59,341 bases of DNA, taken from IMG/VR virus record IMGVR_UViG_3300043429_000266, positions 1 through 59,341 of that record. One strand, written 5' to 3'. The stretch comes from a virus. Position numbers and translations under genes: made by a program. Shown piece by piece: positions 1 through 59,341 of this stretch (positions are counted from its first letter, which is position 1; every line of letters begins with the position of its first letter). The notes beneath the pieces were generated by a model. It was not told where the DNA came from. It saw only the letters and a program-made list of their open reading frames with translations, and did not search any database.

Positions 1-37
1 TGAGGCCTCAATCGGTTACGTCAATCAGGATCGTTAA
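1..37 (+). CDS. DUF3310 protein, C-terminal end (rest at 58814-59251)
   Basis: This is the last eleven codons plus stop of the gene that starts at 58814 at the other end of the window, cut by linearisation. The stop TAA shares its last base with the polymerase start codon (TAATG). Confidence 0.85.
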   Translation, partial: EASIGYVNQDR

Positions 38-127
38 TGCGTACTTTCGTGTTCGACATCGAGACACTCCCCAACTACACTCTAGTGTCCTTCAAGGACA
101 TCGAGTCGAAGGAGTATTTCCGCTTCC
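1..127. repeat. Terminal direct repeat, copy 1 (circular overlap)
   Basis: Bases 1-127 are identical to 59215-59341. An exact 127-base overlap is what a de Bruijn assembler leaves at the ends of a circular contig when it uses a k-mer of 127. I therefore read it as proof of a circular or terminally redundant map of 59,214 bp rather than as a biological terminal repeat. It spans the end of the DUF3310 gene and the start of the DNA polymerase gene. Confidence 0.93.
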
Positions 128-1878
128 GCCGTAACGAGCCGGACGCAGTCGAGCGCCTGAAAGCCTTCCTCAACACTGATGATACGTACATCGGGTTCAA
201 CAGCAACAGCTTTGACAATATCGTGCTGGCGGCCTTCCTAGCGGGTCGCAAGGAGATTGAGATCAAGCGTATCGCTGATGACCTGATTGTGAACCGTGTG
301 TCGCCTTGGAACGCTTACACTAAGCACTCCCTGCTGCGCCCTTCGATTGACACGATCGATTTGATTGAGGTCGCGCCCTCGTTCGTTGGTCTCAAAGCCT
401 ACGGCGCGCGCATGCATATGCCGCTGTTGCAAGACATGCCGATCGCCCACGACGAGTGGATCGAGGACGAGCAGCGCCCTATTGTTGACTCGTACTGCGA
501 CAATGACTTGGACACTACGGAAGAGCTGGTCAACCGGCTTGAGCCTGAGCTGATGCTCCGCATCGCGATGTCTAAGCAGTACGGTGTGGACATGCGTAGC
601 AAGTCTGACGCGCAAATGGCTGAGCAGGCGTACATCACCTCGATGAGCCTGCAACGCCGTGACAACAAGATCCCTAAGACGATCACGTACACGCCGCCCG
701 CCTTCCTGAAGTTTCAAGACCAGCAACTACAGTCCCTGCTGGAGAAAGTCTCACATCATGTCTTCGACATCAACCAAGCAACTGGACACGTCATCCTTCC
801 TGATTTTCTCGGCGGAGACGTTATCAGGTTCGGCAGCGGAACCTACCAGCTCGGTGTCGGCGGTATCCACAGCACTCATGATAAATCGGTGTGTTATGTC
901 GCCGGAGGAGATACTATCTGTGACATTGACGCAGCTAGTTTCTACCCTAGTATCATCCTTGAGTGCGGATTTGTACCAGCAACTCTTGGAAAGCGATTCG
1001 TCGACGAATATCGACAAATCTACGAGCGTCGACTTGAGGCTAAGCGTACTGGTGACAAAGCCACAAACGAAACACTGAAGATCTCGCTCAACGGCACGTT
1101 CGGCAAGCTCGCTAGCAAGTACTCTGTGTTGTACTCGCCTGACCTGATGCTCGCCGTCACGCTCACCGGTCAGTTCACATTGTTGATGCTGATTGAGTGG
1201 CTCGAAATCCTCGGGGCTACCACCCTTAGCGCCAACACTGACGGTATCGCGATCCGCTACGGAAACCAGCTCGAAGCGGGTGTTCAGAAGGTAGTCAAGC
1301 GTTTCAGTGAGGTGTCAAGGTTTGAGTTCGAGTTCACGCCGTACCGTGTACTGGCTATGAAAGACGTCAACAATTATTTTGCTGTCAAACCCGACCGCAA
1401 GCTGAAAACGAAAGGCATTTATGCTCCCCTCTCGCTTAAGAAAAACCCGACTGCGCAAGTTACAGCAGATGCAGTCGGCGCGTGGCTTGCGAACGGAACT
1501 CCGTTTGAGGACACTATTAGGGATGCACCTTTCGTCGATTTTATCAGTGCAAGAAACGTCACTGGCGGCGGCGAACAAAATGGCGTTCCGCTCGGCAAGG
1601 TTGTACGTTGGTATCAGTCCTCGGATGAGAGCCTACCGCCACTCAAGTACATCAAGAACGGCAACAAGGTTCCCAAGACCGAAGGCGCGCGGGCTTGTAT
1701 GACCCTGACCGACAAAACCGTTCACCCTGAAGACCTAGACTACGGATGGTACTACAAGGAGGCAATCAAGATCGCCATCGCAGTTGGGTGTCACGCATAC
1801 CTCACTGACGAACAGCTTAAACTTGTTGCCCCGCCCCCAAAGAAAACTCGAAAGAAGAAAACAGATGTCACAACATGA
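37..1878 (+). CDS. Family B DNA polymerase with 3'-5' exonuclease
   Basis: Replicative DNA polymerase of 613 aa, compact for family B. The exonuclease domain is seen as Exo I FDIET (residues 6-10), Exo II FNSNSFD (54-60) and Exo III YCDND (153-157). Polymerase motif A is DIDAASFYPS (296-305), motif B is KISLNGTFGK (348-357) and motif C is NTDG (400-403). Motif C has Asn where most family B enzymes have the first Asp of DTD; the catalytic second Asp (402) is kept. The C-terminus is Lys-rich. The ATG overlaps the upstream DUF3310 stop by one base. The gene is split by the window ends, with its first 91 bases repeated at 59251-59341. Replication of the phage genome is the expected role, with the primase at 46325 and the Sak4/DUF669 pair downstream. 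Confidence 0.93.
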   Translation: MRTFVFDIETLPNYTLVSFKDIESKEYFRFRRNEPDAVERLKAFLNTDDTYIGFNSNSFDNIVLAAFLAGRKEIEIKRIADDLIVNRVSPWNAYTKHSLLRPSIDTIDLIEVAPSFVGLKAYGARMHMPLLQDMPIAHDEWIEDEQRPIVDSYCDNDLDTTEELVNRLEPELMLRIAMSKQYGVDMRSKSDAQMAEQAYITSMSLQRRDNKIPKTITYTPPAFLKFQDQQLQSLLEKVSHHVFDINQATGHVILPDFLGGDVIRFGSGTYQLGVGGIHSTHDKSVCYVAGGDTICDIDAASFYPSIILECGFVPATLGKRFVDEYRQIYERRLEAKRTGDKATNETLKISLNGTFGKLASKYSVLYSPDLMLAVTLTGQFTLLMLIEWLEILGATTLSANTDGIAIRYGNQLEAGVQKVVKRFSEVSRFEFEFTPYRVLAMKDVNNYFAVKPDRKLKTKGIYAPLSLKKNPTAQVTADAVGAWLANGTPFEDTIRDAPFVDFISARNVTGGGEQNGVPLGKVVRWYQSSDESLPPLKYIKNGNKVPKTEGARACMTLTDKTVHPEDLDYGWYYKEAIKIAIAVGCHAYLTDEQLKLVAPPPKKTRKKKTDVTT

Positions 1879-3567: not shown

Positions 3568-3759
3568 ATGAAACATCTCATAGTCCTAACGCTGCTAGTG
3601 TTCGTATGTTATTTCGGTTGGTACTACCTACCGGAAGAAGCTAAGGACATTTTGCGTAAGTGGCGTGGTACGCATCTGTTCAAGGTGCTCATGCTGTTCT
3701 TACTCGTGTGGCTCGCGTTCATTACGCAGGCTACTTTTGGTTCAGGAAAAATCTTCTAA
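3568..3759 (+). CDS. Small two-helix membrane protein
   Basis: A 63-aa protein with two hydrophobic segments, residues 4-19 (IVLTLLVFVCYFGWYY) and 41-55 (VLMLFLLVWLAFITQ), joined by a basic stretch RKWRG. It lies directly before the SPFH lipoprotein gene (10-bp gap), so both products probably act at the inner membrane. No family recognised. Confidence 0.7.
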   Translation: MKHLIVLTLLVFVCYFGWYYLPEEAKDILRKWRGTHLFKVLMLFLLVWLAFITQATFGSGKIF

Positions 3760-3769
3760 GGAAACGAAT

Positions 3770-39740: not shown

Positions 39741-39910
39741 TTGGACTTCCTTGCGGCGCGCATGTTGTCAACGAGGTTGGGGTACGGGCGACCGGCCTTC
39801 TCAGCTGCGGCCTTAGCGGAGCCCTTGGCGCTCGGGCTCAGGGTCTTGGAGCTGCCCAATGAGGCAGGGCGCTTCTTGTCCCAGACGGGCTTGGCGGGTT
39901 TAGCAGGCAT
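39737..39910 (-). CDS. Conserved very small basic protein
   Basis: A 57-aa protein: MPAKPAKPVWDKKRPASLGS, LSPSAKGSAKAAAEKAGRPY, then PNLVDNMRAARKSK. Such AGRPYPNLVDN-ending proteins recur near terL in other phages. ATGA overlap downstream; its start overlaps the homing endonuclease end by 11 bp. Confidence 0.68.
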   Translation of the reverse strand: MPAKPAKPVWDKKRPASLGSSKTLSPSAKGSAKAAAEKAGRPYPNLVDNMRAARKSK

Positions 39911-40421
39911 AGGTTTTACCCTTCTTTGCTTTTGAAATGTTGGCGCACCACTCGGCGCTACGAGGAACGGCCTTAACGGTGGCGCGTATCTTCTGCTTTT
40001 GCTCTTCGCTCATCGTCTTACCCTTGCGAGCCTCGGACAACTTACGCTTGTGTTCTTCAGTGAACGTGCGGCCTTTCTGGGCAGCAGACACTCGCTGTTT
40101 GGTTTCTGCGGTATGAGCGTAGCCGTTAGTGCCGTCACCACCTGCGGTCAAGTTGTAACCGGCGGGAGCCATAGTGTCGTAAGCGGCTATCGCTTTGACC
40201 TCAAGGTCTTTGACGTAATCGAACGTAGACGTGACCAACACTTCCTTCTTGAAGTTGTCAAATCCGTATTTGCGTATCGCTGAATGTAAAACACAACGAG
40301 AGCCGTTGCGCGCAGACTGAACGTGCTCTTGCCAACGCTTGTGGGTGTTTTTGGCGATACCGATATACACCCGTCCAGAGGGCGAGGTGAGCCGGTAAAG
40401 GTGAGCTGTGTCAGGCTGCAT
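39900..40421 (-). CDS. GIY-YIG homing endonuclease with NUMOD3 repeats
   Basis: A 173-aa enzyme starting at 40421. The nuclease domain opens LYRLTSPSGRVYIGIAKNTHKRWQEH (GIY-YIG as LYRL...VYIGIA, catalytic Arg in KRW), with Glu in DLEVKAI. Three NUMOD3-type DNA-binding repeats follow: ETKQRVSAAQKGRT, EEHKRKLSEARKGKT, EEQKQKIRATVKA. It lies free-standing directly behind terL, overlapping it by 11 bp, with no sign of an intron. Likely a mobile gene that spreads at the terL locus. Confidence 0.88.
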   Translation of the reverse strand: MQPDTAHLYRLTSPSGRVYIGIAKNTHKRWQEHVQSARNGSRCVLHSAIRKYGFDNFKKEVLVTSTFDYVKDLEVKAIAAYDTMAPAGYNLTAGGDGTNGYAHTAETKQRVSAAQKGRTFTEEHKRKLSEARKGKTMSEEQKQKIRATVKAVPRSAEWCANISKAKKGKTYAC

Positions 40422-41982
40422 ACGGGTTGATTCGTTCTTTCTTTGGTCGGTACTCAGCGTCGATGTCTTTAGCCTTCGGAAGCTCAAACCAGCCCTCATT
40501 CTTCAAGAAGATGATGACTTGAGTCAGAGTGTCAACGTAGTCGTCATGCTCTGCCACAGGGAACTTGGTCAACTGCTTTACGAAGGGTTGAGCCCAGCTC
40601 ACAAAATGGCCAGGATTCTTGGCTGACTCGGGGATCCAAATCAATCCGAGTTCCAAGGTCGGGGCCGCCTGATGAGCGCGGGCAATCTTGTCTGCGTTTC
40701 CAGGATTGTACCCCACCGCTGGCACATTCGCCAAGCGCAAGTCCTGCAGCAATGATTGACCGCTGGCTTTTGCTTCAACGAGGACACGGTCGGGGCGGCG
40801 GGCCTTAGACCATGCATGCTTCTTGTCCACGCCGCCGTACTCGCTCGCCCACTCGCTGATAGCGCGCTTGCGTAGCTCGGGATAGCTCAGGTGTTCGTCC
40901 CATGCGTCGAGCAGCATCAGGTTCCGCTTACCCTTGTGCGTGAATACGCCATAGGCCGTGAATGCTGTGGGGTCGTTCTGGGTCTTCTCGCTGAAGGCGC
41001 AGTCGTAGGACTGGATGACGTACTCAAACTGCGGCAGGCCGTTGGCGACCGGCCACAGGCCGAAGCACTTGGTGTTCAGGATACCACCCTCGGTCGGCGT
41101 GGGGTCTTGTTGCAGCTGGCCGCTTGAGCCGTAAGCGCCTAGGAGCTGCTTCAGCTTGGTGATCTCCTCCGGCCCGAAGCGTTCAGGGCAGATGAGTTCG
41201 CCCACGACCTTGCGCGGGTCGTAGGTGCCCATGCTGGTCTTGCGGGTCACGCCGTCCCACTCAGCAGGGATGCAGATGTGCTCCCATCCGCCGATGTCGT
41301 GCAGGATGTGCCCGCTCACGTCTTTCTCGTGTAGGCGCTGCATGACCGTCACCATCGCATCGGTCTTGGGATTGTTCAAACGGGTTGACCATACCATGTC
41401 AAACCACTCAAGGTCGGACTCACGCACTGCGTCTGACTGCGCGGCCTGAGCGCCATGCGGGTCGTCAAGGATGAGGCGCGAGCCGCCTTCACCCGTGGCC
41501 GTACCACCCACTGACGTGGCGAGCCGGTAGCCCGTCTTGTCGTTCTCAAAGCGTTGCTTGGCGTTCTGGTCACCAGCGAAGGCAAACATGTGTCCCCAAC
41601 GCTCTTGATACCACGGGGACTGAATGAGTCGTCGGGTCTTCAAGTTGTCGCGGGTGCTTAGGACGCCGGAGTACGAGGCACACAGGAACTTCTCCTCCGG
41701 CTTCGCTATCCACTCCCACGCAGGCCACATCACCGATACGATTGTCGACTTTGAGTGCCGTGGCGGGATGTTGATGAGCAGACGGGTTATCTCCCCCGCG
41801 CTCACGGCCTCAAGGTGCTCGCAGATCTGCTCAATGTGCCAGCTACCGATGAACGGGATTCCTGGCTCAACCACGTGCCAGCTTTGCTTGACGAACTCGT
41901 ACAGACTAGCGCCAGCCCTGCGGCGGAGCTGCTCCTTCTCGATCATCTCGAGCATGACTACGGGGCTGAGGGGTGCGTTCAT
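40411..41982 (-). CDS. terL: Terminase large subunit
   Basis: A 523-aa packaging motor. Walker A-like INIPPRHSKST (residues about 69-79), Walker B RLILDDPH, nuclease domain QSYDCAFSE and DDYVDTLTQ near the C-terminus. It cuts and translocates DNA into proheads through the portal. It starts four bases inside the PGDWI-type gene (ATGA). Confidence 0.93.
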   Translation of the reverse strand: MNAPLSPVVMLEMIEKEQLRRRAGASLYEFVKQSWHVVEPGIPFIGSWHIEQICEHLEAVSAGEITRLLINIPPRHSKSTIVSVMWPAWEWIAKPEEKFLCASYSGVLSTRDNLKTRRLIQSPWYQERWGHMFAFAGDQNAKQRFENDKTGYRLATSVGGTATGEGGSRLILDDPHGAQAAQSDAVRESDLEWFDMVWSTRLNNPKTDAMVTVMQRLHEKDVSGHILHDIGGWEHICIPAEWDGVTRKTSMGTYDPRKVVGELICPERFGPEEITKLKQLLGAYGSSGQLQQDPTPTEGGILNTKCFGLWPVANGLPQFEYVIQSYDCAFSEKTQNDPTAFTAYGVFTHKGKRNLMLLDAWDEHLSYPELRKRAISEWASEYGGVDKKHAWSKARRPDRVLVEAKASGQSLLQDLRLANVPAVGYNPGNADKIARAHQAAPTLELGLIWIPESAKNPGHFVSWAQPFVKQLTKFPVAEHDDYVDTLTQVIIFLKNEGWFELPKAKDIDAEYRPKKERINPYAA

Positions 41983-42778: not shown

Positions 42779-43110
42779 GCTTCACCTCGTGCTCGGATTT
42801 GATCGCGGAGGTCAATGCAAGCCGCCCATGCCGCTTGAAATGACGGGGTTGGCTCAAACGCCCCGTAAACATCAGCGTGCTTCTTGCACATCTCAGCACA
42901 CGCCTCACGCTCGGCCAACCGTCCCGCTTCAATTCCCTCTTGGTACGACATAAAGCTGCTCGGGTCAATGTTCATCAGCGTGTGGGCTGCTACCAACTCT
43001 ATCAACTTCTGAACCTCAAGCGTTAAGCACTCAACAACCTCACCACCCACAAAGCGCGAGCCAGTAGGAATGCCCGCCTTCTTGGCCAGCTCAATCATGT
43101 CTTGCGTCAT
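42775..43110 (-). CDS. Hypothetical protein
   Basis: A 111-aa helical protein with GIEAGRLAEREACAEMCKKH, a style common among phage accessory proteins (AEREACAxxxE). ATGA overlap with terS. Function unknown. Confidence 0.62.
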   Translation of the reverse strand: MTQDMIELAKKAGIPTGSRFVGGEVVECLTLEVQKLIELVAAHTLMNIDPSSFMSYQEGIEAGRLAEREACAEMCKKHADVYGAFEPTPSFQAAWAACIDLRDQIRARGEA

Positions 43111-43709
43111 TTCGCCTCTCCCGCCTTGCTCATCAGCTTCTGCATCTGCGCCAGCTCATCGTCACTGAGCCCCTTCAGGTTGACGGCAGCCATCTGAATC
43201 GGGCCACCATCAGCGCCGGTGTGTTCCTGCGTCACCTTGTCGCCGTACACCTTGGGCAGCATCTTACTCAGAACCCACTTCTTGGTGTCGATCTGCAACC
43301 GGCGTAGCGCCACCACGTCAGGGCTCAGGGTGACCAGCGCCTTCTCCAGCAGGGGCTCACCGGCCACGTCATACATCAGGTTGCCAGTGGCGTCACGCTT
43401 GTGCACCATGACCACTTCATGGGTGCGGTGCGCGAGTTCGTTGATTTCCTCGGCGAGCAGGGCGTACCCCCTCGCGCGCGCATGCGTGTACTGCTCCTTG
43501 AGGGAGGGGTCTCTCTCCACCCAGCCCAGGAACGTACTAGCCGAGGGCGCACCCCGCACGGCCTCGCATGCTTGGTACAGCGACAGCCCGCGCTCAAGCT
43601 CGGAGCACACCAGAGCCGACAGAGACTCCTTTGTGGCCTGAGGCACAATTGTGCGGGTCTTTTTGACAGCGGGCTTGACAGCCAGCTTCGTTTTTGTTTC
43701 TTTGGTCAT
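43107..43709 (-). CDS. terS: Terminase small subunit
   Basis: A 200-aa protein. N-terminal HTH region ALVCSELERGLSLYQACEAV and SASTFLGWVERDPSLKEQYT (recognition helix), then a helix-rich core RRLQIDTKKWVLSKMLPKVY and GDKVTQEHTG. It recognises the packaging site for terL. It has no clear SD: GTGTAAAATTCTCAGC lies before the ATG. The iteron region starts 37 bp upstream. Confidence 0.85.
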   Translation of the reverse strand: MTKETKTKLAVKPAVKKTRTIVPQATKESLSALVCSELERGLSLYQACEAVRGAPSASTFLGWVERDPSLKEQYTHARARGYALLAEEINELAHRTHEVVMVHKRDATGNLMYDVAGEPLLEKALVTLSPDVVALRRLQIDTKKWVLSKMLPKVYGDKVTQEHTGADGGPIQMAAVNLKGLSDDELAQMQKLMSKAGEAK

Positions 43710-50470: not shown

Positions 50471-50529
50471 ACGTTCAGGAAGTTGGTTCAAAAATACAAT
50501 GGAAATATTTTGGCGAGGGGGTTGTTTTG

Positions 50530-50554
50530 TTGAATTTTTTGAGGCAAAATTCAA
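50530..50554 (+). promoter_or_regulatory. Perfect 9-bp inverted repeat, putative operator
   Basis: TTGAATTTT and AAAATTCAA flank TTGAGGC. The right arm matches the TTGAGGC(T)AAAATTCAA block at 57978-57994. It lies 54 bp before the first plus-block ATG; no T-tract makes a terminator unlikely, so an operator or promoter part is more likely. Confidence 0.5.
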
Positions 50555-50607
50555 TACGTTGGTTCAGCAATGAATGAACAATGAATAACTTAATAACTGG
50601 AGTAACT

Positions 50608-51162
50608 ATGAAAACCATCAACGTCAAATCCGCCACCACCCGTGAACTGGTTGAGTTCTACAACGCTCATTCAGGTTGCGACCCGATCAAGAAGTTCAGC
50701 GATCGCCGCAACGCTGAAAAGAGAGTTGAGAAGCTCATGGCGGAGCGTCAGTTCAAAGCCCCCTCACCCCTCGTTGACAATCAACACTGCCCAGTGTGCA
50801 ACAGCGCTGATTTGTACTTCGGCAAACTGGTCAGAGAACAACTGGTTGACGAAGAACACATCGTCACCTGCCGCTCATGCGGTTACACTGTTGACTGGCG
50901 CAAGAGCAAGAACGCCAAGCCGGTCACCAAGGTCGGCCCCCGCCCCGCTATGAAGCAGTCTTTGAAGCTAGACCGCCGCATCCTGCACATTGAGACCGGC
51001 ACCGTCTACGCTAACGCATGTCAAGTCTGGAAAGCCGCGCTCGTTACCAGCTCACAAGGTGACCGCCTGTCGGCTACGCTCTACGGCGCTGCTAAGCGCG
51101 GCGAGTTCCCGACCCTCAGCGTGAACGGTCACACGTTCGAGTTGGCAGTGAAGGGAGAGTAA
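50608..51162 (+). CDS. Zinc-ribbon protein, first gene of plus block
   Basis: A 184-aa protein. N-terminal TRELVEFYNAHSGCDPIKKF then SDRRNAEKRVEKL is a helical pattern known from DUF3489-like and phage proteins. A zinc ribbon CPVC (61-64)...CRSC follows, then a basic C-terminal part with KLDRRILHIETGTVY that resembles a NUMOD1-type DNA-binding module. Early regulator or DNA-binding role likely. ATG 50608 fits the shared GGAG leader; an earlier in-frame ATG at 50581 lacks it. Confidence 0.68.
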   Translation: MKTINVKSATTRELVEFYNAHSGCDPIKKFSDRRNAEKRVEKLMAERQFKAPSPLVDNQHCPVCNSADLYFGKLVREQLVDEEHIVTCRSCGYTVDWRKSKNAKPVTKVGPRPAMKQSLKLDRRILHIETGTVYANACQVWKAALVTSSQGDRLSATLYGAAKRGEFPTLSVNGHTFELAVKGE

Positions 51163-51163
51163 C

Positions 51164-51427
51164 ATGAGCTACGACACTAACCCTTACGTATTGATGTGCC
51201 GCAGCAAGTATCTACACCTGAACGACCCACGTTGCTACAACGGCGCGTACTTTGATGCGGAAATGATGTGGGGTGGCTGGCAGGTGCTTGACCGCCTGTC
51301 CGATACCGAGACCGCAGCGCGTAAGCTGAAGTTCTGGCGCGAGCTGAACGACTACGCTGTGAGCCAGCGAGGTGAAGACTCTCGCCGTGAGTTCAAGATT
51401 GTTGAGCAGGAAGAGGTGGCAGCATGA
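51164..51427 (+). CDS. Hypothetical protein
   Basis: An 87-aa protein with many aromatics: YDTNPYVLMCRSKYLHLNDP, YNGAYFDAEMMWGGWQVLDR. The C-terminus is helical and charged. No family recognised. Starts one base after the previous stop. Confidence 0.6.
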   Translation: MSYDTNPYVLMCRSKYLHLNDPRCYNGAYFDAEMMWGGWQVLDRLSDTETAARKLKFWRELNDYAVSQRGEDSRREFKIVEQEEVAA

Positions 51428-51534
51428 GTAACTGGCCCTTCCCCCCGCTCACCGGCCCCGTGCCTTGGACTAACAAACAGAAGAGCGACTACGCTCGTCA
51501 GCAACGCGAACAGCAAGAGGAGTCACCGTTATGA
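51424..51534 (+). CDS. Very small Pro/Gln-rich protein
   Basis: A 36-aa ORF, MSNWPFPPLTGPVPWTNKQK then a Gln/Glu-rich end, tied to both neighbours by ATGA overlaps, which is the main support for it being translated. Function unknown. Confidence 0.5.
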   Translation: MSNWPFPPLTGPVPWTNKQKSDYARQQREQQEESPL

Positions 51535-52247
51535 GTAAGCAAACCCGAGTCCGCTGGACTGCTGAAGAGCGCACGTTGATCGTGCAACGCATGGTTCAAC
51601 TGTTGAACAAATCCGGTAGAAATTATTCAAAAGCCGGTTTGGCATTATGTGCTCAAGAAGTGCTCCCTGCTAATCGCCGCCGTAAGATCTTCACCCCTAA
51701 AGAACTCAAAGACATGAACGCCAAGGCTCACGCCTTAGCAGCTGAAGCAATCAAGCCGATGATCCGTGAGGCTGAGGCCGCCGTGGTTGAGCATGCGGTC
51801 ATTCCGCAGCGTGACGAGCTGACAACCCTGCTTGAGTCGTTGATTGACAAGATCGCTGATAAGGTGGCCGAGCGCCTCGCAGCGCAGCTCCAAGTGCACG
51901 TCAACACAACGACCACAACACATAGCGAGCACCGCCCGCGCCACAACCCTGAGCCACCTTGCAACGCTCCCCGTGAGCCTAAGGTCGGTGTGCTCATCTT
52001 GGGTATGCAACCTCATCAGGGTAACATCCTCAAGCAGGAGTTCCCGATGCTTGACATCACCTGTTACGACTCTGACGAGGCCCGCACCAAGCAGGTCATC
52101 ATGCGCAAGCACACCATCGGTATGACTCGCTTCCTGAGCCATCAAGTTGAAGACCGCTACCGCAAGTGCCCTCGCTATCACCGCCACAGCGCCGGTACAT
52201 CCGAGCTGAAGACCCTGTTGAAACAAATCGCCGAAGGAACCGTATGA
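51531..52247 (+). CDS. Putative regulator: HTH-like N-terminus and DUF2325-like C-terminus
   Basis: A 238-aa protein. The first 30 residues (VRWTAEERTLIVQRMVQLL) look like a Myb/HTH-type start. A helical and low-complexity linker (Thr and His rich, near 130-140) follows. The last 90 residues, KVGVLILGMQPHQGNILKQE then HTIGMTRFLSHQVEDRYRKC, resemble DUF2325-like alpha/beta domains. An early regulator is a fair guess. Confidence 0.55.
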   Translation: MSKQTRVRWTAEERTLIVQRMVQLLNKSGRNYSKAGLALCAQEVLPANRRRKIFTPKELKDMNAKAHALAAEAIKPMIREAEAAVVEHAVIPQRDELTTLLESLIDKIADKVAERLAAQLQVHVNTTTTTHSEHRPRHNPEPPCNAPREPKVGVLILGMQPHQGNILKQEFPMLDITCYDSDEARTKQVIMRKHTIGMTRFLSHQVEDRYRKCPRYHRHSAGTSELKTLLKQIAEGTV

Positions 52248-52546
52248 CTACCGACCACATTGAGGCCCGAGGCCGCACTATGTACTGCACCCGCTGTGAG
52301 TGCGCGAACGAAGTGAACATGCCTGCCAAAATAGATGAGATCATTTATCAGATGGACAGTTTCCGTGATGCGCACAAAGACTGCAAGCCCCGAGCTATCG
52401 AGGCTCAGATGTCTGAGTACATCAAGGGGTTTGACGCTGGTTGCGAGCACCTGATGCGTGAGATAGAATTATTCATGAAGTCTAAGCCGCTTCCTCCTTC
52501 AAATATTGCCGAACTAGTGGCGCATTTACGCAAAGGTCTCAAATGA
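52244..52546 (+). CDS. Hypothetical protein with CxxC motif
   Basis: A 100-aa protein, ATG 52244 overlapping the previous stop. MYCTRCECANEVNMPAKIDE with HKDC could form a zinc site. The rest is helical. No family recognised. ATGA overlap with the PLP enzyme gene. Confidence 0.6.
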   Translation: MTTDHIEARGRTMYCTRCECANEVNMPAKIDEIIYQMDSFRDAHKDCKPRAIEAQMSEYIKGFDAGCEHLMREIELFMKSKPLPPSNIAELVAHLRKGLK

Positions 52547-53505
52547 CACAATCAATTTTCCCCGTCCTCGCACTTGACCGCGCTCAGGTGCAGTGGGAGC
52601 AACACCTAGGCGAACTCACCCCATGGGAAAACCGTGACGGTGTCTGGTTCAAGCGTGAGGACTACTTCGCGCCGCTCGGCTACGGCGGCCCTAACGGGTC
52701 TAAGATGCGCCAGCTCATCTGGTACATGAACCGTTACCGTGAGGGTAAGACTCACGTGCTGACCGGCGCGAGCATTCAGAGCCCCCAGCTCAGTATGTCC
52801 GCCATCGTCGGTGCGCACTTCGGCCTCAAGTGCCGTCAGGTCGTCTACAGCAAGCCACATACGGTGCTGACGCATGAGAACCCGAGTATCTCAGCCGGTT
52901 TCGGCGCTGTGTTTGAGTACGTGAACGGGCCGTACAACCCCATCATCCAACGGCGCGTGGTTGACCTGACTCAGCCCACCTCGTTGGTGGTTGAGTACGG
53001 TATCACGGTACCGCATAAGACGCGCCCCGCTGAGGATGTGTTGAAGTTTCATGAGGTCGGCGCTAACCAGATTCGCAACCTGCCCGCCGAGGTGAAGACA
53101 CTGATCGTACCTGCCGGCTCATGCAACTCGCTTTGCAGCATGTTGTTGGGTCTCAGCCGAGACTCCAAGAACCTAAACCGCCTGCGCATCGTGGGTATCG
53201 GCCCCGACAAGCGTAAGTGGGTGCGTGAGCGTATGGTGATTATGGGGGTTGACATTGACCGCCTGCCGTTCGTTACCGAGTACCACAGCCTGCACGATAC
53301 CGGCTTCAGCAAGTACAGCGACAAGTTCAAAGGTGAGAACCATTCCGGTATCAATTTTCACCCCACGTATGAGGCCAAAATTTGGCGTTACCTGCGTGAG
53401 TCGGCCTCGCTTTACGCTGATGACAAGACTGGGTTCTGGATCGTCGGTAGCGCGCCCAACCCCGCAATCGTTAAGCCGTTCTACACTAACCAAGGAGCCG
53501 CCTGA
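52543..53505 (+). CDS. Fold-type II PLP-dependent enzyme (ACC deaminase/D-Cys desulfhydrase-like)
   Basis: A 320-aa enzyme. VWFKREDYF (34-42) and GGPNGSKMRQL (48-58) match the KR[ED]D...GGNKxRKLE signature of the ACC deaminase/D-cysteine desulfhydrase group, with Lys54 as the PLP lysine. PAGSCNSLCSML (near 191) is the phosphate-binding loop. ASIQSPQLSMSAIVGAHFGL fits the second fold element. It sits in the same coupled operon as the AADT-, kinase- and TS-like genes, so I infer it edits an amino acid moiety tied to the modified base or its precursor. Free-substrate deaminase or racemase activity cannot be ruled out. Confidence 0.75.
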   Translation: MTQSIFPVLALDRAQVQWEQHLGELTPWENRDGVWFKREDYFAPLGYGGPNGSKMRQLIWYMNRYREGKTHVLTGASIQSPQLSMSAIVGAHFGLKCRQVVYSKPHTVLTHENPSISAGFGAVFEYVNGPYNPIIQRRVVDLTQPTSLVVEYGITVPHKTRPAEDVLKFHEVGANQIRNLPAEVKTLIVPAGSCNSLCSMLLGLSRDSKNLNRLRIVGIGPDKRKWVRERMVIMGVDIDRLPFVTEYHSLHDTGFSKYSDKFKGENHSGINFHPTYEAKIWRYLRESASLYADDKTGFWIVGSAPNPAIVKPFYTNQGAA

Positions 53506-53807
53506 TGTTTAACCGCATTTACACAATCATCAAGCGCCGAGTCAAGCGCAAGCTGACCGTTGCTATCTACAAGAAACCTAAGATCGTGCGCGCCTCAACG
53601 CTTGAGCGCGCCCAGCATTACGTTGACAACCACGGCTGCCCAACCACCCGCTGCTTCCCTCGCACCACTGACGATGCGTTCCGCCACTTGGGTGACGGCA
53701 TGGAGACGTTCTTCCCCCCTGAGCAACGCTGGCAAGACAAAGTGATGTTTGCCGTTGGCGTTTGCTGCTGGATCGCCCTTGGCATTTTTTACTGGAGATA
53801 CCTATGA
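53505..53807 (+). CDS. Small protein with C-terminal membrane helix
   Basis: A 100-aa protein with a very basic N-terminus (IIKRRVKRKLTVAIYKKPK) and a single membrane segment at the end (VMFAVGVCCWIALGIFYW). TGATG overlap with the PLP gene, SD AAGGAG. Function unknown. Confidence 0.62.
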   Translation: MFNRIYTIIKRRVKRKLTVAIYKKPKIVRASTLERAQHYVDNHGCPTTRCFPRTTDDAFRHLGDGMETFFPPEQRWQDKVMFAVGVCCWIALGIFYWRYL

Positions 53808-54016
53808 ACAAATTCTTTAAAGACGTGGCTAACCTGCTCCACTGGCTCTTCCCCTTCATCTGCACTTGCGCGTTTGCTTACGTTTTCGGCGCGTTCATCG
53901 AGTGGTCACGCGACCCCGCTGACTGGACTTGGCAGGCTCGTTTCTGCACCGTGATCTTCGGCGTGTCGCTCGGGTTTGCGGTTGACCGCCGCCTTGAGAT
54001 GGCTGTGAGGGACTGA
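53804..54016 (+). CDS. Small membrane protein
   Basis: A 70-aa protein with two membrane segments (LLHWLFPFICTCAFAYVFGA and ARFCTVIFGVSLGFAV). ATG 53804 overlaps the previous stop (ATGA). Function unknown. Confidence 0.62.
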   Translation: MNKFFKDVANLLHWLFPFICTCAFAYVFGAFIEWSRDPADWTWQARFCTVIFGVSLGFAVDRRLEMAVRD

Positions 54017-54019
54017 GCA

Positions 54020-54142
54020 ATGGAATGGCTTGATAAAACAGTTACCGTCGGTGATCTTCTGTCGATCGCCCTTGGTTGGTTCCTATTCGACTTGATCGTA
54101 ATAGGTCACAAAATATACAAGAACGCGAAAAGTAGGATGTAA
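54020..54142 (+). CDS. Very small membrane protein
   Basis: A 40-aa ORF: MEWLDKTVTVGDLLSIALGW then FLFDLIVIGHKIYKNAKS. One membrane segment and a basic end. Close spacing (3 bp) to the preceding gene supports it. Confidence 0.55.
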   Translation: MEWLDKTVTVGDLLSIALGWFLFDLIVIGHKIYKNAKSRM

Positions 54143-54144
54143 GC

Positions 54145-54252
54145 ATGTTAGAAAACGTAACCCTGATGGTGCTGTTGATGGTGCTCGGCGCAAGCCTCAC
54201 AGTCGCAGTGCTCATCGGTTTTATTTACTGGATGGAGATGCAGAATGATTGA
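54145..54252 (+). CDS. Very small membrane protein
   Basis: A 35-aa ORF, almost all one membrane helix: LMVLLMVLGASLTVAVLIGF. Starts two bases after the previous stop and overlaps the next gene by 8 bp. Confidence 0.55.
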   Translation: MLENVTLMVLLMVLGASLTVAVLIGFIYWMEMQND

Positions 54253-55249
54253 CTACCGTTTCAAGGAGTACAGAGAAGAATACTTCTCCGCGCTTTACAA
54301 GATGAACCTAGAGTACGGGGTCATGCCTGGACTCGTGTACCTCTACATGCCCGCTCTGGCTAAGGCCAACGGCTGGGGTGCTGATGAGAAACTCTGGTTC
54401 GCGTTCCTGAACGGCCTGACGCAGAACCCTATCACCTCGCTGCGCATGTTCCAACGCTTGTCTGAGTGCCCGCCCGCCGGAGCCCCTCTCAAGGGCTTTG
54501 AGGAGTGGTTCAACGCGAACTGGGAGACCCTGCAGTTTGACACTGACCGCCGATATCAGAAGAAAGACACCTTGGTAGCTATAAAGGCTTACGCCAAAGC
54601 GGTTGAACACTTCGGCTCGCAAGAAGCCATGCTGCGTAAAGACACCCCGTATTGTGATTTATGGTCTAGGGTGCGCGGTATGTATAGTAGTTTCGGACGC
54701 TTGTCTGCGTTCAGCTACCTCGAGTACGTGAACATCATGGGTTTCGGCAACGACTGCGATGACTTGATCTTCAGCGACAAGTCGGGCAGCAAGTCACACC
54801 GCAACGGTATGTTGTTCCTCATCGGCAAAGACGACTTGGTGTGGGACAAACGCCTTGACAACGGTCAAGACGGCAACTACAATAACTTCAAGATGATGTG
54901 TGGCTTTTTAGCCGCCTCAGCTGATGTTCATATTGAGAAGTTCAAAGCCCTGAACCCTGAAGTGCCTAACGTGGGTCGGTTCACCTTTGAGTCTAACCTT
55001 TGTACGTTCAAGAATCACTTCTTCGGTCGTCGCTATCCAGGAGTCTACGCCGACATGGCGCAAGACCGTATTGAGTGGGCCGACGAGCGCGGCCTTCAAG
55101 AGCACACTCAAGTGTTCAAGGGTATGCGCGAGGCGCTCCTGCCTGAGTGGTTGCGTCGTGAGTGTTCGCCGGCAAAGTTCAATGTCAAGTCGGCAGCCTC
55201 ATTGTTCCCTGAAACGGGTGCCCCTTATCGTGCGGAGTACTTCCTATGA
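54245..55249 (+). CDS. Amino acid:DNA transferase-like (AADT) protein
   Basis: A 334-aa protein. It carries DEKLWFAFLNGLTQNP (48-62), SSFGRLSAFSYLEYV (148-162), SGSKSHRNGM (180-189), GKDDLVW and FTFESNLCTFKNHF...RRYPGVYAD (247-270). I recall this order from the AADT (formerly aG/PT-PPlase clade 2) family, whose members attach amino acids to phosphorylated 5-hydroxymethyl-uracil in phage DNA. The neighbouring kinase and TS-like genes support this. The call rests on memory of the family, not on a search. Confidence 0.6.
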   Translation: MIDYRFKEYREEYFSALYKMNLEYGVMPGLVYLYMPALAKANGWGADEKLWFAFLNGLTQNPITSLRMFQRLSECPPAGAPLKGFEEWFNANWETLQFDTDRRYQKKDTLVAIKAYAKAVEHFGSQEAMLRKDTPYCDLWSRVRGMYSSFGRLSAFSYLEYVNIMGFGNDCDDLIFSDKSGSKSHRNGMLFLIGKDDLVWDKRLDNGQDGNYNNFKMMCGFLAASADVHIEKFKALNPEVPNVGRFTFESNLCTFKNHFFGRRYPGVYADMAQDRIEWADERGLQEHTQVFKGMREALLPEWLRRECSPAKFNVKSAASLFPETGAPYRAEYFL

Positions 55250-55440
55250 GAAACCGAACAATGACCGAACGCTCACGTCAAGTGGCGATCAAGCGCCTGA
55301 GCCGCTACCCTCTCGGCGGCGACAACCTCGGCTGGCACAAACACTACGCCGAGGTTCACAACAAGACGCAGACCTTTGACTCTGCTCATCTCGCGATGTG
55401 GTATTTGCTGCTACATCTCGCACTTGGGGAACAACAATGA
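55246..55440 (+). CDS. Hypothetical small protein in hypermodification operon
   Basis: A 64-aa protein: MTERSRQVAIKRLSRYPLGG then HKHYAEVHNKTQTFDSAHLA. ATGA overlaps with both the AADT-like and kinase genes. No family recognised. Confidence 0.58.
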   Translation: MRNRTMTERSRQVAIKRLSRYPLGGDNLGWHKHYAEVHNKTQTFDSAHLAMWYLLLHLALGEQQ

Positions 55441-56018
55441 CAAATCAAATCGTCAACATTCGCGGCTGCAACGGCTCGGGCAAGACTACAATCGTGCGCC
55501 GGTTCCTTGACAAGCTGCCGACTCAGGCGCTGGGCGGTAAGCCGAGCAAGCCCGCCGGTTATCGCGTCGACGCAACATCATGGGGTATCATGCTGCCCGT
55601 GTTCATCGTGGGTTCTTATGAGAACACCTGCGGCGGCACTGACGGAATCAGCACTCAAGAGGAGATCGCCGAACGCACCACGAAGGCGCACGGTCACGGC
55701 CATGTGCTTGTTGAGGGGCTGCTGATGAGCAAGTCCAGCGCGGGCGGTCACGTAGCTCCTATCCTCAAAGACCACGGCGCTATCTTCGGGTTCCTCGATA
55801 CACCTTGGCAAATGTGCCTTGACAGGGTTCTTTTGCGCCGTCAGGCTGCGGGTAATATCAAACCCTTTGACCCTGAGAAGACCATGCGCTCCGCCTACGA
55901 ACAATGTCACCGCTCGGCTGAGTTGTTGACTCAAGCCGGTGGGTATGATGTCCGCTGGATCGACCACCTGAACGCCGTCGGAACCGTCGTGCAATATTTG
56001 AAAGATGCTGAAGTATGA
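55437..56018 (+). CDS. P-loop kinase, candidate 5-hmdU DNA kinase
   Basis: A 193-aa P-loop kinase: IRGCNGSGKTTIVRRFL with Walker A GCNGSGKT (10-17), a strand VLVEGLLMS near 100, a strand GAIFGFLDTPW, and a LID-like LLRRQAAG with conserved Arg pair. Together with the following helical-domain protein it matches the 5-hydroxymethyl-dU DNA kinase module of thymidine-hypermodifying phages. A plain nucleotide kinase is the alternative. Confidence 0.68.
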   Translation: MTNQIVNIRGCNGSGKTTIVRRFLDKLPTQALGGKPSKPAGYRVDATSWGIMLPVFIVGSYENTCGGTDGISTQEEIAERTTKAHGHGHVLVEGLLMSKSSAGGHVAPILKDHGAIFGFLDTPWQMCLDRVLLRRQAAGNIKPFDPEKTMRSAYEQCHRSAELLTQAGGYDVRWIDHLNAVGTVVQYLKDAEV

Positions 56019-56932
56019 TTGATGTCTGCCCGTACAAGCGCCCTGACGAGCGCACCGTGACCTCTCTTGAGGGGTTGCTGTACTTCGTCTGGGAGCGTGA
56101 GGCTATCCGAGTCGCCAAAGAGGGCGGCTGGCAGGTTAATGCGCTCACCAATGACCCTGTGCTCAAGAAGTACAAGTTCACCAATATTCGCCGCCGTGAC
56201 GATCGTGTCTCTCAGTGGATCATTGAGCACTTGATCAAGCCTAACGCTGACCATGAAGATTTGTGGTTTACGTTGCTCATCGCTCGTATCATCAACTGGC
56301 CCCCGACCTTGCAGGCGTTACTGCACGAGAAAGTGATCCCGTGTGCGCCTGAAGACTTTGATGCTGAGTTGTTCTCAGTGACGATTGAGGCGCTCAAGGC
56401 TAATGGCACTAAAGTGTACTCAGGTGCTTACATGGTCTACCCGACCAAGATGGACGTGGGGGGTAACAAGTCTTCCGCTATTGCTAAGCACATCTTAGGC
56501 GGGGTGATTGAGCGCGCTGAAGACATCTGGTCTTCTCTCAACCACCCTGATTCTGATCCTTCGGTTGAACGGTTCGTAGAGTCTCTTTCTAAGTGCTTCG
56601 GCCTGAGCACCTTTATGGCCGGTCAAGTGGCTGCTGATTTGACTTATGGCGACATTGAGTTTGAAGACATTTACAGTTACGCCCCCATCGGCCCAGGAAG
56701 CTCTCGCGGCTTGAACTACTTGAAGGGCCGCCGCCCGTTTGCGAGCTGGGGTCAAGGTGACTTCAACAACGCGCTCATCGAGATTCATCACGAAATTGAA
56801 GAGCATCTTGACATCAAAGACATGACGCTACATGATGTGCAAAATGTTATGTGCGAATTCAGCAAGTATTGCCGCTGTGTCCTGAATGAGGGCGTCCCTA
56901 AAACTATCTACAAACCCGAGGAGTTGTTCTAA
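56015..56932 (+). CDS. 5-hmdU DNA kinase helical-domain / aG/PT-PPlase-like protein
   Basis: A 305-aa helical protein. DPVLKKYKFTNIRRRDDRVS (47-66) then QWI, and FMAGQVAADLTYG with IGPGSSRGLNYL (about 205-240), are the two most typical blocks of the family found next to 5-hmdU DNA kinases (HMUDK_hel, once called alpha-glutamyl/putrescinyl thymine pyrophosphorylase). Its fold is related to helix-hairpin-helix DNA glycosylases, so it probably flips and holds the target base. Overlaps the kinase by ATGA. Confidence 0.7.
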   Translation: MIDVCPYKRPDERTVTSLEGLLYFVWEREAIRVAKEGGWQVNALTNDPVLKKYKFTNIRRRDDRVSQWIIEHLIKPNADHEDLWFTLLIARIINWPPTLQALLHEKVIPCAPEDFDAELFSVTIEALKANGTKVYSGAYMVYPTKMDVGGNKSSAIAKHILGGVIERAEDIWSSLNHPDSDPSVERFVESLSKCFGLSTFMAGQVAADLTYGDIEFEDIYSYAPIGPGSSRGLNYLKGRRPFASWGQGDFNNALIEIHHEIEEHLDIKDMTLHDVQNVMCEFSKYCRCVLNEGVPKTIYKPEELF

Positions 56933-57928
56933 ATGGAAATCAACGTACGTAACGTCAATCACGCATTCAGTGATATTTTCTGGAAGCTGAAGGTGATGAA
57001 CCTGAAGCCCGAGCAGACCCGTAACGGCCCTGCTTACGTCATAAACGAGCCGGTCATCACTACCTACCGCTACCCGCAGGAACGCGTATTGTTCCACAAG
57101 GGGCGCGATGCGAACCCGATCTTCCACCTGATGGAGTCGATCTGGATGCTTGCGGGCCGCCGTGATGTGAGTTTCTTGCAGCACTTCAACAGCACTATTG
57201 GTCAGTTCAGCGATGACGGCAAAGTGTTCAACGCTGCGTACGGCTACCGCTGGCGTAGGCATTTTGGCTTTGACCAGCTCGAGGAAACCATCAAGCTCCT
57301 ACGTAAAGACCCGTCAACCCGTCAGGCGGTCATCCAGATGTGGGATCAAGACGACTTGAACAAGCGCACAAAAGACAAGGCGTGTAACACCCAAGTCGTA
57401 TTTGACACTCGCGGGGGTCGCTTGAACATGACCGTGTTCAATCGCTCTAACGACATCTGGTGGGGTGCCTACGGCGCTAACGCTGTGCACTTCAGCTTCC
57501 TGCAAGAGTTCGTCGCCAGCGCGCTCAACATGCACTGCGGTCAGTACCGTCAGGTGAGCAACAACCTGCACTTGTACGTTGATTTGTATGATGCCGCCAA
57601 GTACATTGAAAACCCGCCTACGGTTGAGGACTACGATTTGTACTCACAGGCGGCGGTCGGCCCGCTCCCGATCATGCTCAACGGCGACTACAAATCATTC
57701 CTGCTGGATTGTGAGAAGTTCTGCTGCGATCCGTTTGACCAGTCCGCACAGTACAAGAACCCGTTCTTCACCCACGTGGCTCAACCGATGGCTATGGTCA
57801 GCCGTGTGCGCAAGGTTCGCGCCGGTGACGGAATGGGCTTCGCCGCCAAGATCCGCGCTCAAGACTGGAAGCGCGCGGTGGTTAATTGGATCCACAAGCG
57901 CGAATTGCTTAGGGCCGAGAAAGAGTAA
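56933..57928 (+). CDS. Thymidylate synthase homologue, candidate dUMP hydroxymethylase
   Basis: A 331-aa TS-superfamily protein. Nucleophile Cys151 lies in KACNTQVVF (not PPCH as in normal ThyA). NRSNDIWWGAYGANAVHFS (170-188) gives the RS-x-D block and an Asn (183) at the base-selecting position, which points to dUMP, not dCMP. AAYGYRWR (101-108) and the HLYVDLY block are kept. I infer 5-hydroxymethyl-dUMP synthesis, since the kinase and AADT-like genes lie upstream; normal dTMP synthesis is the alternative. Starts right after the previous stop. Confidence 0.75.
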   Translation: MEINVRNVNHAFSDIFWKLKVMNLKPEQTRNGPAYVINEPVITTYRYPQERVLFHKGRDANPIFHLMESIWMLAGRRDVSFLQHFNSTIGQFSDDGKVFNAAYGYRWRRHFGFDQLEETIKLLRKDPSTRQAVIQMWDQDDLNKRTKDKACNTQVVFDTRGGRLNMTVFNRSNDIWWGAYGANAVHFSFLQEFVASALNMHCGQYRQVSNNLHLYVDLYDAAKYIENPPTVEDYDLYSQAAVGPLPIMLNGDYKSFLLDCEKFCCDPFDQSAQYKNPFFTHVAQPMAMVSRVRKVRAGDGMGFAAKIRAQDWKRAVVNWIHKRELLRAEKE

Positions 57929-57945
57929 ATCATGAATACCGGCGC

Positions 57946-57994
57946 GATTTGAAAATACAATCGTGGCGGTATAAAAATTGAGGCTAAAATTCAA
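57946..57994 (+). promoter_or_regulatory. Promoter-type element before second plus-strand unit
   Basis: GATTTGAAAATACAATC (57946-57962), 21 bp, CTAAAAT (57984-57990), in TTGAGGCTAAAATTCAA (57978-57994). It also reads as a sigma70-like pair TTGAAA (57949) and TATAAA (57970) with 15 bp between. The same two elements occur on the minus strand at 50427-50470. Confidence 0.6.
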
Positions 57995-58019
57995 CTCATG
58001 CTGACGGACAAGTAGGTTT

Positions 58020-58170
58020 GAAGCCAGTAGCGAACACGAGTAACCTCTAGGGGTGAAGGGCCAGTAGCGAAGACGAAGTAAACTGAATCTCCTGAATGCA
58101 TGTCGGGCAGACGTAAAGGCTGACGCCTCGGAAAGACGAGGGCTTATAACTGAATAACTGGAGTAACTTG
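58020..58170 (+). ncRNA. Structured leader with tandem GCCAGTAGCGAA repeats
   Basis: Non-coding stretch after the promoter. GCCAGTAGCGAA occurs at 58023-58034 and 58060-58071 (37-bp period), each followed by ACGAG/GACGAAG and TAA. GCCTCG-GAAAGA-CGAGG-GC forms a hairpin near 58125-58143. CTCTAGGGGTG (58046-58056) and CCTGAATGC (58091) also occur in the 5138-5294 leader. It may be a regulatory leader or a small RNA; I cannot assign it to a known family. Confidence 0.4.
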
Positions 58171-58296
58171 ATGAAATTTGACACCTCTGAACTTTTGAAG
58201 ATTTTGGCGCACTTGTCCCTTGAGGGCGAGACGTTTGAGATTTGCCGCGCGGCGCTCAAACTTCAAGTCGCCCTGCAAGCTACTCAGCGCGGTTGA
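58171..58296 (+). CDS. Very small helical protein
   Basis: A 41-aa ORF: MKFDTSELLKILAHLSLEGE then TFEICRAALKLQVALQATQR. A good AATAACTGGAG leader precedes the ATG, identical in form to that of two other genes, which supports translation. Function unknown. Confidence 0.6.
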   Translation: MKFDTSELLKILAHLSLEGETFEICRAALKLQVALQATQRG

Positions 58297-58325
58297 TCGT
58301 ATAACTTGATAACTGGAGTAACTTG

Positions 58326-58814
58326 ATGAAAAACACCCTTGAATTTATTATGGCCGGCAGTGAGGTCAAGCGGTATCACACCGTCACCACCCTGCGTGAA
58401 GAAACCGTCGGTCATCATTCACACGGCGTGGCGATGTTGTGTATGGTTTTAACCGACTACCAAGCCAGCTCTCAGCTGCTTGAGTCAGCGTTGATGCATG
58501 ACCTCGCTGAAGCCGTCACCGGTGACATTCCTTCCCCCGCTAAGCGTGAGTACGGTATCGGTGACCAAGTTTCCGCCCTCGAGTTCAGACTCCTACGTGA
58601 TGCGGGCCTGCCGGTTTACACCCTGAACCAAACTGAAGAGCGTATCCTCAAGCTCGCTGACATCGCACAAGGTGCGTTGTTCTGCCTGCGTGAGATCAGC
58701 ATGGGTAACTCTAAAATGCGTATCGTTCTAGATCGCTACATGGCTTACGCTGACAGCATGGTTCTGGTCGGGCGTGAGCGCGAATTGTTTGACACTATTA
58801 AGGAGAAAATGTGA
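58326..58814 (+). CDS. HD-domain nucleotide phosphohydrolase (YfbR-like)
   Basis: A 162-aa protein. Metal ligands are seen as VGHHSHGVAM (His31/His33), LMHDLAEAVTGD (His58, Asp59, Asp67) and a later Asp in LKLADIAQ. This is the HD-domain 5'-deoxynucleotidase plan. In a phage with a modified pyrimidine it might remove competing dNMP. ATG 58326 fits the shared leader. Confidence 0.8.
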   Translation: MKNTLEFIMAGSEVKRYHTVTTLREETVGHHSHGVAMLCMVLTDYQASSQLLESALMHDLAEAVTGDIPSPAKREYGIGDQVSALEFRLLRDAGLPVYTLNQTEERILKLADIAQGALFCLREISMGNSKMRIVLDRYMAYADSMVLVGRERELFDTIKEKM

Positions 58815-59251
58815 TGACAGCGAACAGTATGCAAATCGGCGGCAACCACTACCGCTCTGGTATCCAGCACTGGGACTTGATGGACGACTACAATGTCGGC
58901 TACCTTGAGGCCGCCGCTACAAAGTACGTCACCCGCTGGCGCAACAAAGACGGCGTCAAAGACTTGCAGAAGGCTTTACACTTCGTCAAGAAGCTCGCCG
59001 AGAAGCGTCAAGACGCGCCTCAAGTTGAGATCTCTGAGCGTATCCCTCAGGTGCCCCGTCAGGCTATCAACAAGTTTCTCGAGGCCAATCAGCTCACCGG
59101 CGACGATGCCGACATCATTAGCCATCTGCTCACTTGGCAGAGCACTGCGACGTTGCACCTTGTTGCGGGCCGAATTCAGCAGCTCATCAACGGCGCTACG
59201 CCTGATGACGGCGCTGAGGCCTCAATCGGTTACGTCAATCAGGATCGTTAA
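58814..59251 (+). CDS. DUF3310 (SaV-like) nucleotide-pathway protein
   Basis: A 145-aa protein. QHWDLMDDYNVGYLEAAATK then YVTRWRNKDGVKDLQKALHF is the DUF3310 signature. A helical C-terminal part (residues 70-135) is extra. Often found near phage nucleotide genes, once called SaV-like. ATG 58814 overlaps the HD stop (TGATG); AGGAG is upstream. It continues at 1-37. Confidence 0.8.
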   Translation: MTANSMQIGGNHYRSGIQHWDLMDDYNVGYLEAAATKYVTRWRNKDGVKDLQKALHFVKKLAEKRQDAPQVEISERIPQVPRQAINKFLEANQLTGDDADIISHLLTWQSTATLHLVAGRIQQLINGATPDDGAEASIGYVNQDR

Positions 59252-59341
59252 TGCGTACTTTCGTGTTCGACATCGAGACACTCCCCAACTACACTCTAGT
59301 GTCCTTCAAGGACATCGAGTCGAAGGAGTATTTCCGCTTCC
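59215..59341. repeat. Terminal direct repeat, copy 2 (circular overlap)
   Basis: Identical to bases 1-127; see copy 1. Joining the ends gives an uninterrupted DUF3310 stop/polymerase start junction. Confidence 0.93.
59251..59341 (+). CDS. DNA polymerase, duplicated 5' end
   Basis: First 30 codons of the family B polymerase, repeated because of the circular overlap; the full gene is at 37-1878. Confidence 0.9.
   Translation, partial: MRTFVFDIETLPNYTLVSFKDIESKEYFRF

Follow-up and report, generated by a model that had tools for sequence, protein, structure and literature searches.

Which modified base does a phage make when its genome carries genes for thymidine hypermodification and no radical SAM enzyme, and from which phages do these genes come? 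The question is raised by a viral DNA stretch of 59,341 nucleotides (IMG/VR record IMGVR_UViG_3300043429_000266; hereafter the window, meaning the whole stretch). Five of its genes, at 52543-57928, encode in order a pyridoxal phosphate (PLP)-dependent enzyme, the amino-acid transferase AADT, a P-loop kinase, an HMUDK_hel protein and a thymidylate synthase-like (TS-like) protein. A preliminary description had read them as one coupled operon for hypermodification, and had taken the missing radical SAM gene as a hint of a new base. We confirmed the coordinates, the strand and the coupling. Indeed, the kinase and HMUDK_hel genes overlap via ATGA, the PLP stop codon shares one base with the next open reading frame (ORF), and the HMUDK_hel and TS-like genes abut. 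By sequence comparison, the lineage is a mosaic, with an activation module of the type of Pseudomonas phages M6 and PaMx11 (Mesyanzhinovviridae) and a decoration module of the type of phage ViI (Vi01, Ackermannviridae). We consider it likely that this combination gives 5-(2-aminoethoxy)methyl-dU (5-NeOmdU), the base of ViI, or a close relative. As far as the literature shows, the kind of pathway is already known, and the specific mosaic, its lineage, a clade that lost the PLP gene and an exchange of kinase alleles are new. Lee et al. reportedly pointed out earlier that these genes vary combinatorially in viral metagenomes.

Sources of the activation and decoration genes

Both the AADT and the PLP enzyme fall in the ViI branch. 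The AADT scores 66.9 bits against its family profile (curated cut-off 26.2), and in a profile search it matched the ViI protein at 8.5e-101 and did not match those of M6, PaMx11 and PhiW-14. In tblastn searches against phages, the AADT recovered Ackermannviridae (ViI-like), Mycobacterium cluster-B and Glutamicibacter phages, and the PLP protein recovered Ackermannviridae; M6-like phages were found with neither query, and BLASTP of the window AADT against the M6 AADT gave no match. The AADT tree separates, with 100/100 support, the window, its relatives, ViI, Aeromonas phage phiA8-29, Lolalove and Montesquieu from M6, PaMx11, Bhz59, Simon and PhiW-14. A D..GSxSxRNG segment, which the preliminary description had picked out as a GSKSHRNGM block, is common to the ViI-side group and missing in M6/PaMx11. 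The AlphaFold (AF2) model of the AADT (pLDDT 94.6, built from 31 sequences) matched in Foldseek the structures 8z2m/8z2n, i.e., PaMx11 gp46, a 5-phosphomethyl-dU glycinyltransferase (prob 1.00, TM 0.51-0.62, E 0.006-0.013), all other listed matches having a prob of at most 0.20. Sequence searches of solved structures with the AADT, HMUDK_hel and kinase proteins gave nothing useful, so that the AADT was identified among solved structures by fold search only. With such modest E and TM values, the model suggests a link to gp46 at the level of the fold, between two deep branches. This match names 5-phosphomethyl-dU, the expected product of a kinase acting on 5-hydroxymethyl-dU (5-hmdU) in DNA, as the candidate substrate of the AADT.

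The PLP protein is a member of the ACC deaminase / D-cysteine desulfhydrase superfamily and a homologue of ViI Vi01_182. It aligns by hhalign with the ViI/phiA8-29 proteins over 310 columns (Prob 100, E 9.6e-68), and with the M6 PLP enzyme over 85 C-terminal columns only (56% probability). The residues N51-G52-S53-K54 (in NGSKMRQ) are invariant in 31 relatives, and K54 is the predicted Schiff-base lysine. The AF2 model (pLDDT 91.1) has fold type II, and its best Foldseek match is the D-cysteine desulfhydrase 4d9e (E 1.8e-12), ACC deaminase being also near.

On the other hand, the kinase, HMUDK_hel, TS-like, HD-domain and DUF3310 genes resemble those of M6/PaMx11, as does their order, and the kinase-HMUDK_hel-TS-HD-DUF3310-polymerase synteny goes together with closest homology to these phages. 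The kinase, with the Walker A motif GCNGSGKTT, is 31% identical to the PaMx11 kinase and 26% identical to M6 gp54; against PF18748 it stays under the cut-off of 27 (14.8 bits, E 0.02). Its neighbour scores 134 bits against the HMUDK_hel profile (cut-off 25) and is 32% identical to M6 gp55 (5.6e-41), so that the window holds both parts of a putative 5-hmdU DNA kinase, a Walker A P-loop kinase and its HMUDK_hel partner. Against phages, tblastn of these two proteins recovered M6-, PaMx11- and Ab18-like phages and PhiW-14, and the best matches of the TS-like protein were M6/PaMx11-like. In the TS tree, the window groups with M6/PaMx11 (SH-aLRT 98) and ViI falls outside. In thymidylate synthases, the reaction depends on a catalytic Cys, and an Asn goes with the uracil substrate; the TS-like protein has both, in KACNTQ and GAYGAN respectively, at positions aligned in M6, PaMx11 and ViI. 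The HD 5'-deoxynucleotidase occupies the operon position of M6 gp59 and PaMx11 gp52.

Beside these results, we observed that PHROGs (phrog_800) and several GenBank records label the 5-hmdU kinase family "terminase small subunit". A separate Sf6-type small terminase is encoded in the window at 43107-43709 (-), and the label therefore looks misannotated.

ViI has the same TS-like, P-loop kinase, HMUDK_hel, AADT and PLP families, but its genes are scattered over 157 kb of a myovirus genome, whereas those of the window form one compact operon, whose kinase, HMUDK_hel and TS-like proteins belong to the M6 branch. M6 and PaMx11 share with the window the order AADT, kinase, HMUDK_hel, TS, HD and DNA polymerase, other genes intervening in places. 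They differ in being siphoviruses, whereas the virion genes of the window are of podovirus type, and in their AADT and tailoring genes: M6 has a radical SAM enzyme and another PLP enzyme, PaMx11 has an FAD enzyme and an acetyltransferase, and the window has an AADT and a PLP enzyme of ViI type, its PLP gene lying upstream of the AADT gene. In Glutamicibacter phage Montesquieu, an AADT and a PLP gene from the same broad branch as those of the window adjoin each other, and an HMUDK_hel and a TS-like protein are also encoded, but at 30-35% identity, with the AADT-PLP order reversed and with extra kinase-like genes. In Mycobacterium phage Lolalove (locus L003, 1765-2826), a ViI-branch AADT gene adjoins a kinase-like gene; despite this AADT, the Mycobacterium cluster-B phages gave no HMUDK_hel or PLP match.

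Prediction of the final base

That the operon serves thymidine hypermodification, including a step of amino-acid transfer, is, in our view, almost certain. This reading and the roles assigned in the preliminary description stand, as judged from the profile matches of the AADT and HMUDK_hel proteins. We infer four steps from the homologues. The TS-like protein would turn dUMP into 5-hydroxymethyl-dUMP, and the HD nucleotidase would drain dTMP, lowering the competing dTMP/dTTP pool, so that 5-hmdU enters DNA. The P-loop kinase and HMUDK_hel would then phosphorylate selected 5-hmdU residues of the DNA, which become 5-phosphomethyl-dU. The AADT would displace the phosphate by an amino acid, probably serine, most likely via its side-chain oxygen. 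Finally, the PLP enzyme, which we propose as a decarboxylase of the appended amino acid, would give 5-NeOmdU or a close ether-amine. The modified base would replace part of the thymidine, and its positive charge would shield the phage DNA from host restriction enzymes.

The absence of the radical SAM gene, recorded by the preliminary description, holds in this genome. Bases 1-127 recur at the other end of the window, and the genome is therefore complete, circular or circularly permuted (59,214 bp once one copy of the repeat is removed); gene absences, including that of radical SAM, are thus real within search sensitivity. A profile search of the complete genome gave no radical SAM match, M6 gp53 itself scoring only 1.1e-6. 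The M6 radical SAM enzyme, the PaMx11 FAD enzyme and the PaMx11 acetyltransferase had no tblastn match in the window, and in a scan for CxxxCxxC the sole frame was antisense to the terminase gene, none lying in a plausible gene. But this absence is not unusual: ViI and phiA8-29 have AADT, PLP and HMUDK_hel proteins and likewise no radical SAM match, and the step from a missing radical SAM gene to a new base therefore fails as a default. M6 DNA contains 5-(2-aminoethyl)-dU (5-NedU), ViI DNA 5-NeOmdU (PMC6449724), an ether that replaces about 40% of T in ViI-like phages (PMC11721090). Since the ViI side chain is an ethanolamine ether, i.e., a decarboxylated O-linked serine, a transferase and a decarboxylase would suffice, with no radical C-C step. 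The window has the ViI gene complement, namely a ViI-branch AADT, a Vi01_182-like PLP enzyme and no radical SAM enzyme, which makes 5-NeOmdU the default prediction. We hold 5-NeOmdU itself to be the final base with moderate confidence. For M6, by what Lee et al. (2018 and 2021) are said to have reported, the side chain is C-C bonded, a step of the radical SAM enzyme. An M6-type (5-NedU) product was rejected as a candidate, with no radical SAM enzyme and with an AADT and a PLP enzyme of the wrong branch.

Two observations weigh against the prediction of 5-NeOmdU. The window AADT is merely 27% identical to the ViI AADT, whose branch length is 3.85; the transferred amino acid could therefore differ, and this is the weakest link of the product prediction. 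In addition, the ViI P-loop protein Vi01_196, annotated as a guanylate kinase, has no tblastn match in the window. Vi01_196 is reportedly one of five proteins in the in vitro reconstitution of the ViI pathway, although a homologue of it may not be a defining part of a ViI-type pathway.

The alternative that deserves most attention is the same pathway with an AADT that transfers another amino acid in place of serine, which would make the final base a new one. Published AADTs differ in the amino acid used, and the ViI branch also takes in Mycobacterium and Glutamicibacter phages. But the PLP partner aligns with its ViI counterpart over almost its whole length (E 1e-67), which suggests the same type of substrate, and ViI-type AADT and PLP genes co-occur across Ackermannviridae; we regard a different amino acid as possible, though unlikely. 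The closest solved folds of the PLP protein, D-cysteine desulfhydrase and ACC deaminase, are enzymes of elimination or ring opening, and a beta-eliminating enzyme might remove the mark or act on a free metabolite instead of decarboxylating. Yet beta-elimination from an O-linked serine would give back 5-hmdU and make the pathway futile, and the ViI homologue comes from a phage whose DNA bears the decarboxylated product, which leaves this idea improbable.

Two further readings appear very improbable. The operon order, the kinase, the HMUDK_hel and the TS are M6-like, and one could imagine the M6 base made by an unrecognised C-C bond-forming enzyme; against this stand the radical SAM, tblastn and CxxxCxxC searches of the complete genome described above and the position of the AADT and PLP enzymes outside the M6 branch. 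The TS-like protein, which keeps the catalytic Cys and a PF00303 match, could also be an ordinary thymidylate synthase next to a degenerate or inactive remnant. But its nearest solved enzyme is a pyrimidine 5-hydroxymethylase (CMP 5-hydroxymethylase, 5b6d, 2.3e-23, thymidylate synthases reaching about 1e-12), the tree places it with the M6/PaMx11 enzymes, and catalytic motifs and gene order are kept across about 70 contigs. The reading that we retain is the pathway leading to 5-NeOmdU or a close relative.

Genome, virion lineage and distribution

The genes of the operon mostly overlap or abut, with two small ORFs between the PLP and AADT genes (Table 1). The operon extends past the TS-like gene into an HD 5'-deoxynucleotidase gene and a DUF3310 gene and then, across the circular junction, into a DNA polymerase A gene. 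Megablast of 50500-59341 against phages gave no match to the operon DNA.

Table 1. Hypermodification operon, adjoining genes and terminal repeat of the window.
Feature	Coordinates	Strand	Evidence or remark
PLP-dependent enzyme, fold type II	52543..53505	+	phrog_3650 4.5e-80; PF00291 weak 1.3e-4
Small ORF, 100 aa	53505..53807	+	coupled to PLP gene; kept in nearest relatives only (L005, L006)
Small hydrophobic ORF, ATG near 53804	53762..54016	+	kept in L005, L006, L007, L021
AADT, ViI branch	54245..55249	+	PF18724 2.9e-18
P-loop kinase, putative 5-hmdU DNA kinase subunit, type 1 allele	55440..56018 (start approximate)	+	phrog_800 2.5e-17
HMUDK_hel (aG/PT-PPlase clade 1), putative 5-hmdU DNA kinase partner	56015..56932	+	PF18723 6.8e-39
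TS-like putative dUMP hydroxymethylase	56933..57928	+	PF00303 5.8e-22; phrog_5131 3.4e-103
HD-domain YfbR-like 5'-deoxynucleotidase	58323..58814	+	PF12917 6.8e-13
DUF3310 protein, M6 gp61 homologue	58811..59251	+	PF11753 5.6e-6; M6 gp61 37% identity, 5.6e-24
Family A DNA polymerase	37..1878	+	phrog_1252 1.9e-163
Terminal direct repeat	1..127		identical to 59215-59341

The podovirus label of the preliminary description agrees with the portal and terminase, which match HTVC023P-type podoviruses and Roseobacter and Caulobacter phages; a podovirus morphology is predicted for the window. The portal is 52% identical to that of Caulobacter phage KcrB and 31% identical to that of HTVC023P, whose pelagiphage group thus shares a related portal protein. 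Some HTVC023P-type clades have TS and aG/PT-PPlase1 genes and a 5'-deoxynucleotidase gene near polA, and a relationship to M6 was noted; the accessible part of the same study contains no report of AADT and PLP genes in these podoviruses (PMC9599517). Among seven cultured or assembled phages that share the virion lineage of the window (HTVC023P, HTVC027P, 023Pt_psg01, KcrB, CRP-901, DSL-LC04 and ctpbd312), none had an AADT, HMUDK_hel or PLP match.

A search of IMG/VR returned close AADT relatives on 80 contigs, and PLP relatives at 80 loci. The AADT, kinase, HMUDK_hel and TS-like genes follow in this order in 73 of the 80 AADT contigs, and all five genes, headed by PLP, in 52 of them, several of the remaining contigs ending within the locus. 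The cassette is conserved in about 70 uncultivated contigs. No radical SAM match was found in the long relatives (0/26), and the ORFs inserted between the PLP and AADT genes in loci L022, L065, L117 and L125, read by eye only, include no obvious tailoring enzyme. A search of genome contigs for AADT returned only two actinobacterial contigs from metagenome-assembled genomes (35-39% identical), which are uninformative on the host.

Other genes of the window were also observed: a Zn-ribbon protein gene (50581-51162, weak Lar/HNH-like matches), which most relatives also carry directly before the operon; an SPFH/Band 7 domain protein gene in the early gene region (3665-4573, PF01145 2.5e-13); and a GIY-YIG/NUMOD3 homing-endonuclease-like gene (39900-40499, -) adjoining the large terminase gene.

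Kinase alleles and the PLP-less clade

The kinase occurs as two alleles, with GCNGSGKTT in type 1 and GTFGSGKTT in type 2, which are about 50% identical and are found in otherwise nearly identical operons. Between loci L017 and L019, the identities are 97% for PLP, 84% for AADT, 91% for HMUDK_hel and 94% for TS, but 50% for the kinase; between L009 and L011, they are 93, 87, 91 and 90% respectively, but 49% for the kinase. On the TS plus HMUDK_hel tree, the kinase type requires at least 10 changes, versus a mean of 18.7 and a minimum of 15 with shuffled labels; the type is therefore partly inherited and often exchanged. The kinase has been argued to set the TG/TC context of modification (PMC6449724), and we therefore hypothesise that allele exchange may shift the choice of marked thymidines.

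The six loci that lack the PLP gene (L044, L046, L052, L054, L070 and L082) form one clade (support 99) nested among PLP-bearing phages. In the alignment with its sister L059, a 1.5-kb PLP-containing segment is replaced by about 0.65 kb. As judged from tree and alignment, the PLP gene upstream of AADT is lost in this clade. The 60.8- and 57.5-kb contigs of the clade have no PLP match anywhere, and they carry no end repeats, so that their completeness is not proven. The base of these phages is predicted to keep its carboxylate, as an un-decarboxylated amino-acid thymidine.

A bolder combined reading, in which the AADT installs an amino acid unseen in DNA, the PLP-less clade keeps an un-decarboxylated thymidine and the kinase alleles switch the marked thymidines, seems to us rather doubtful; if true, the final base would be new to DNA. 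We rate the kinase exchange and the PLP loss as more interesting than the claim of the preliminary description, and the idea that an absent radical SAM gene is the sign of a new base is corrected here. In thymidine hypermodification, modules for activation and for decoration are combined across distant phage lineages, and a complete gene set is common among uncultivated podovirus-like phages. Within them, the exchanges between kinase alleles and the clade without the PLP gene offer natural experiments on the determinant of the target sequence and on the role of base charge.

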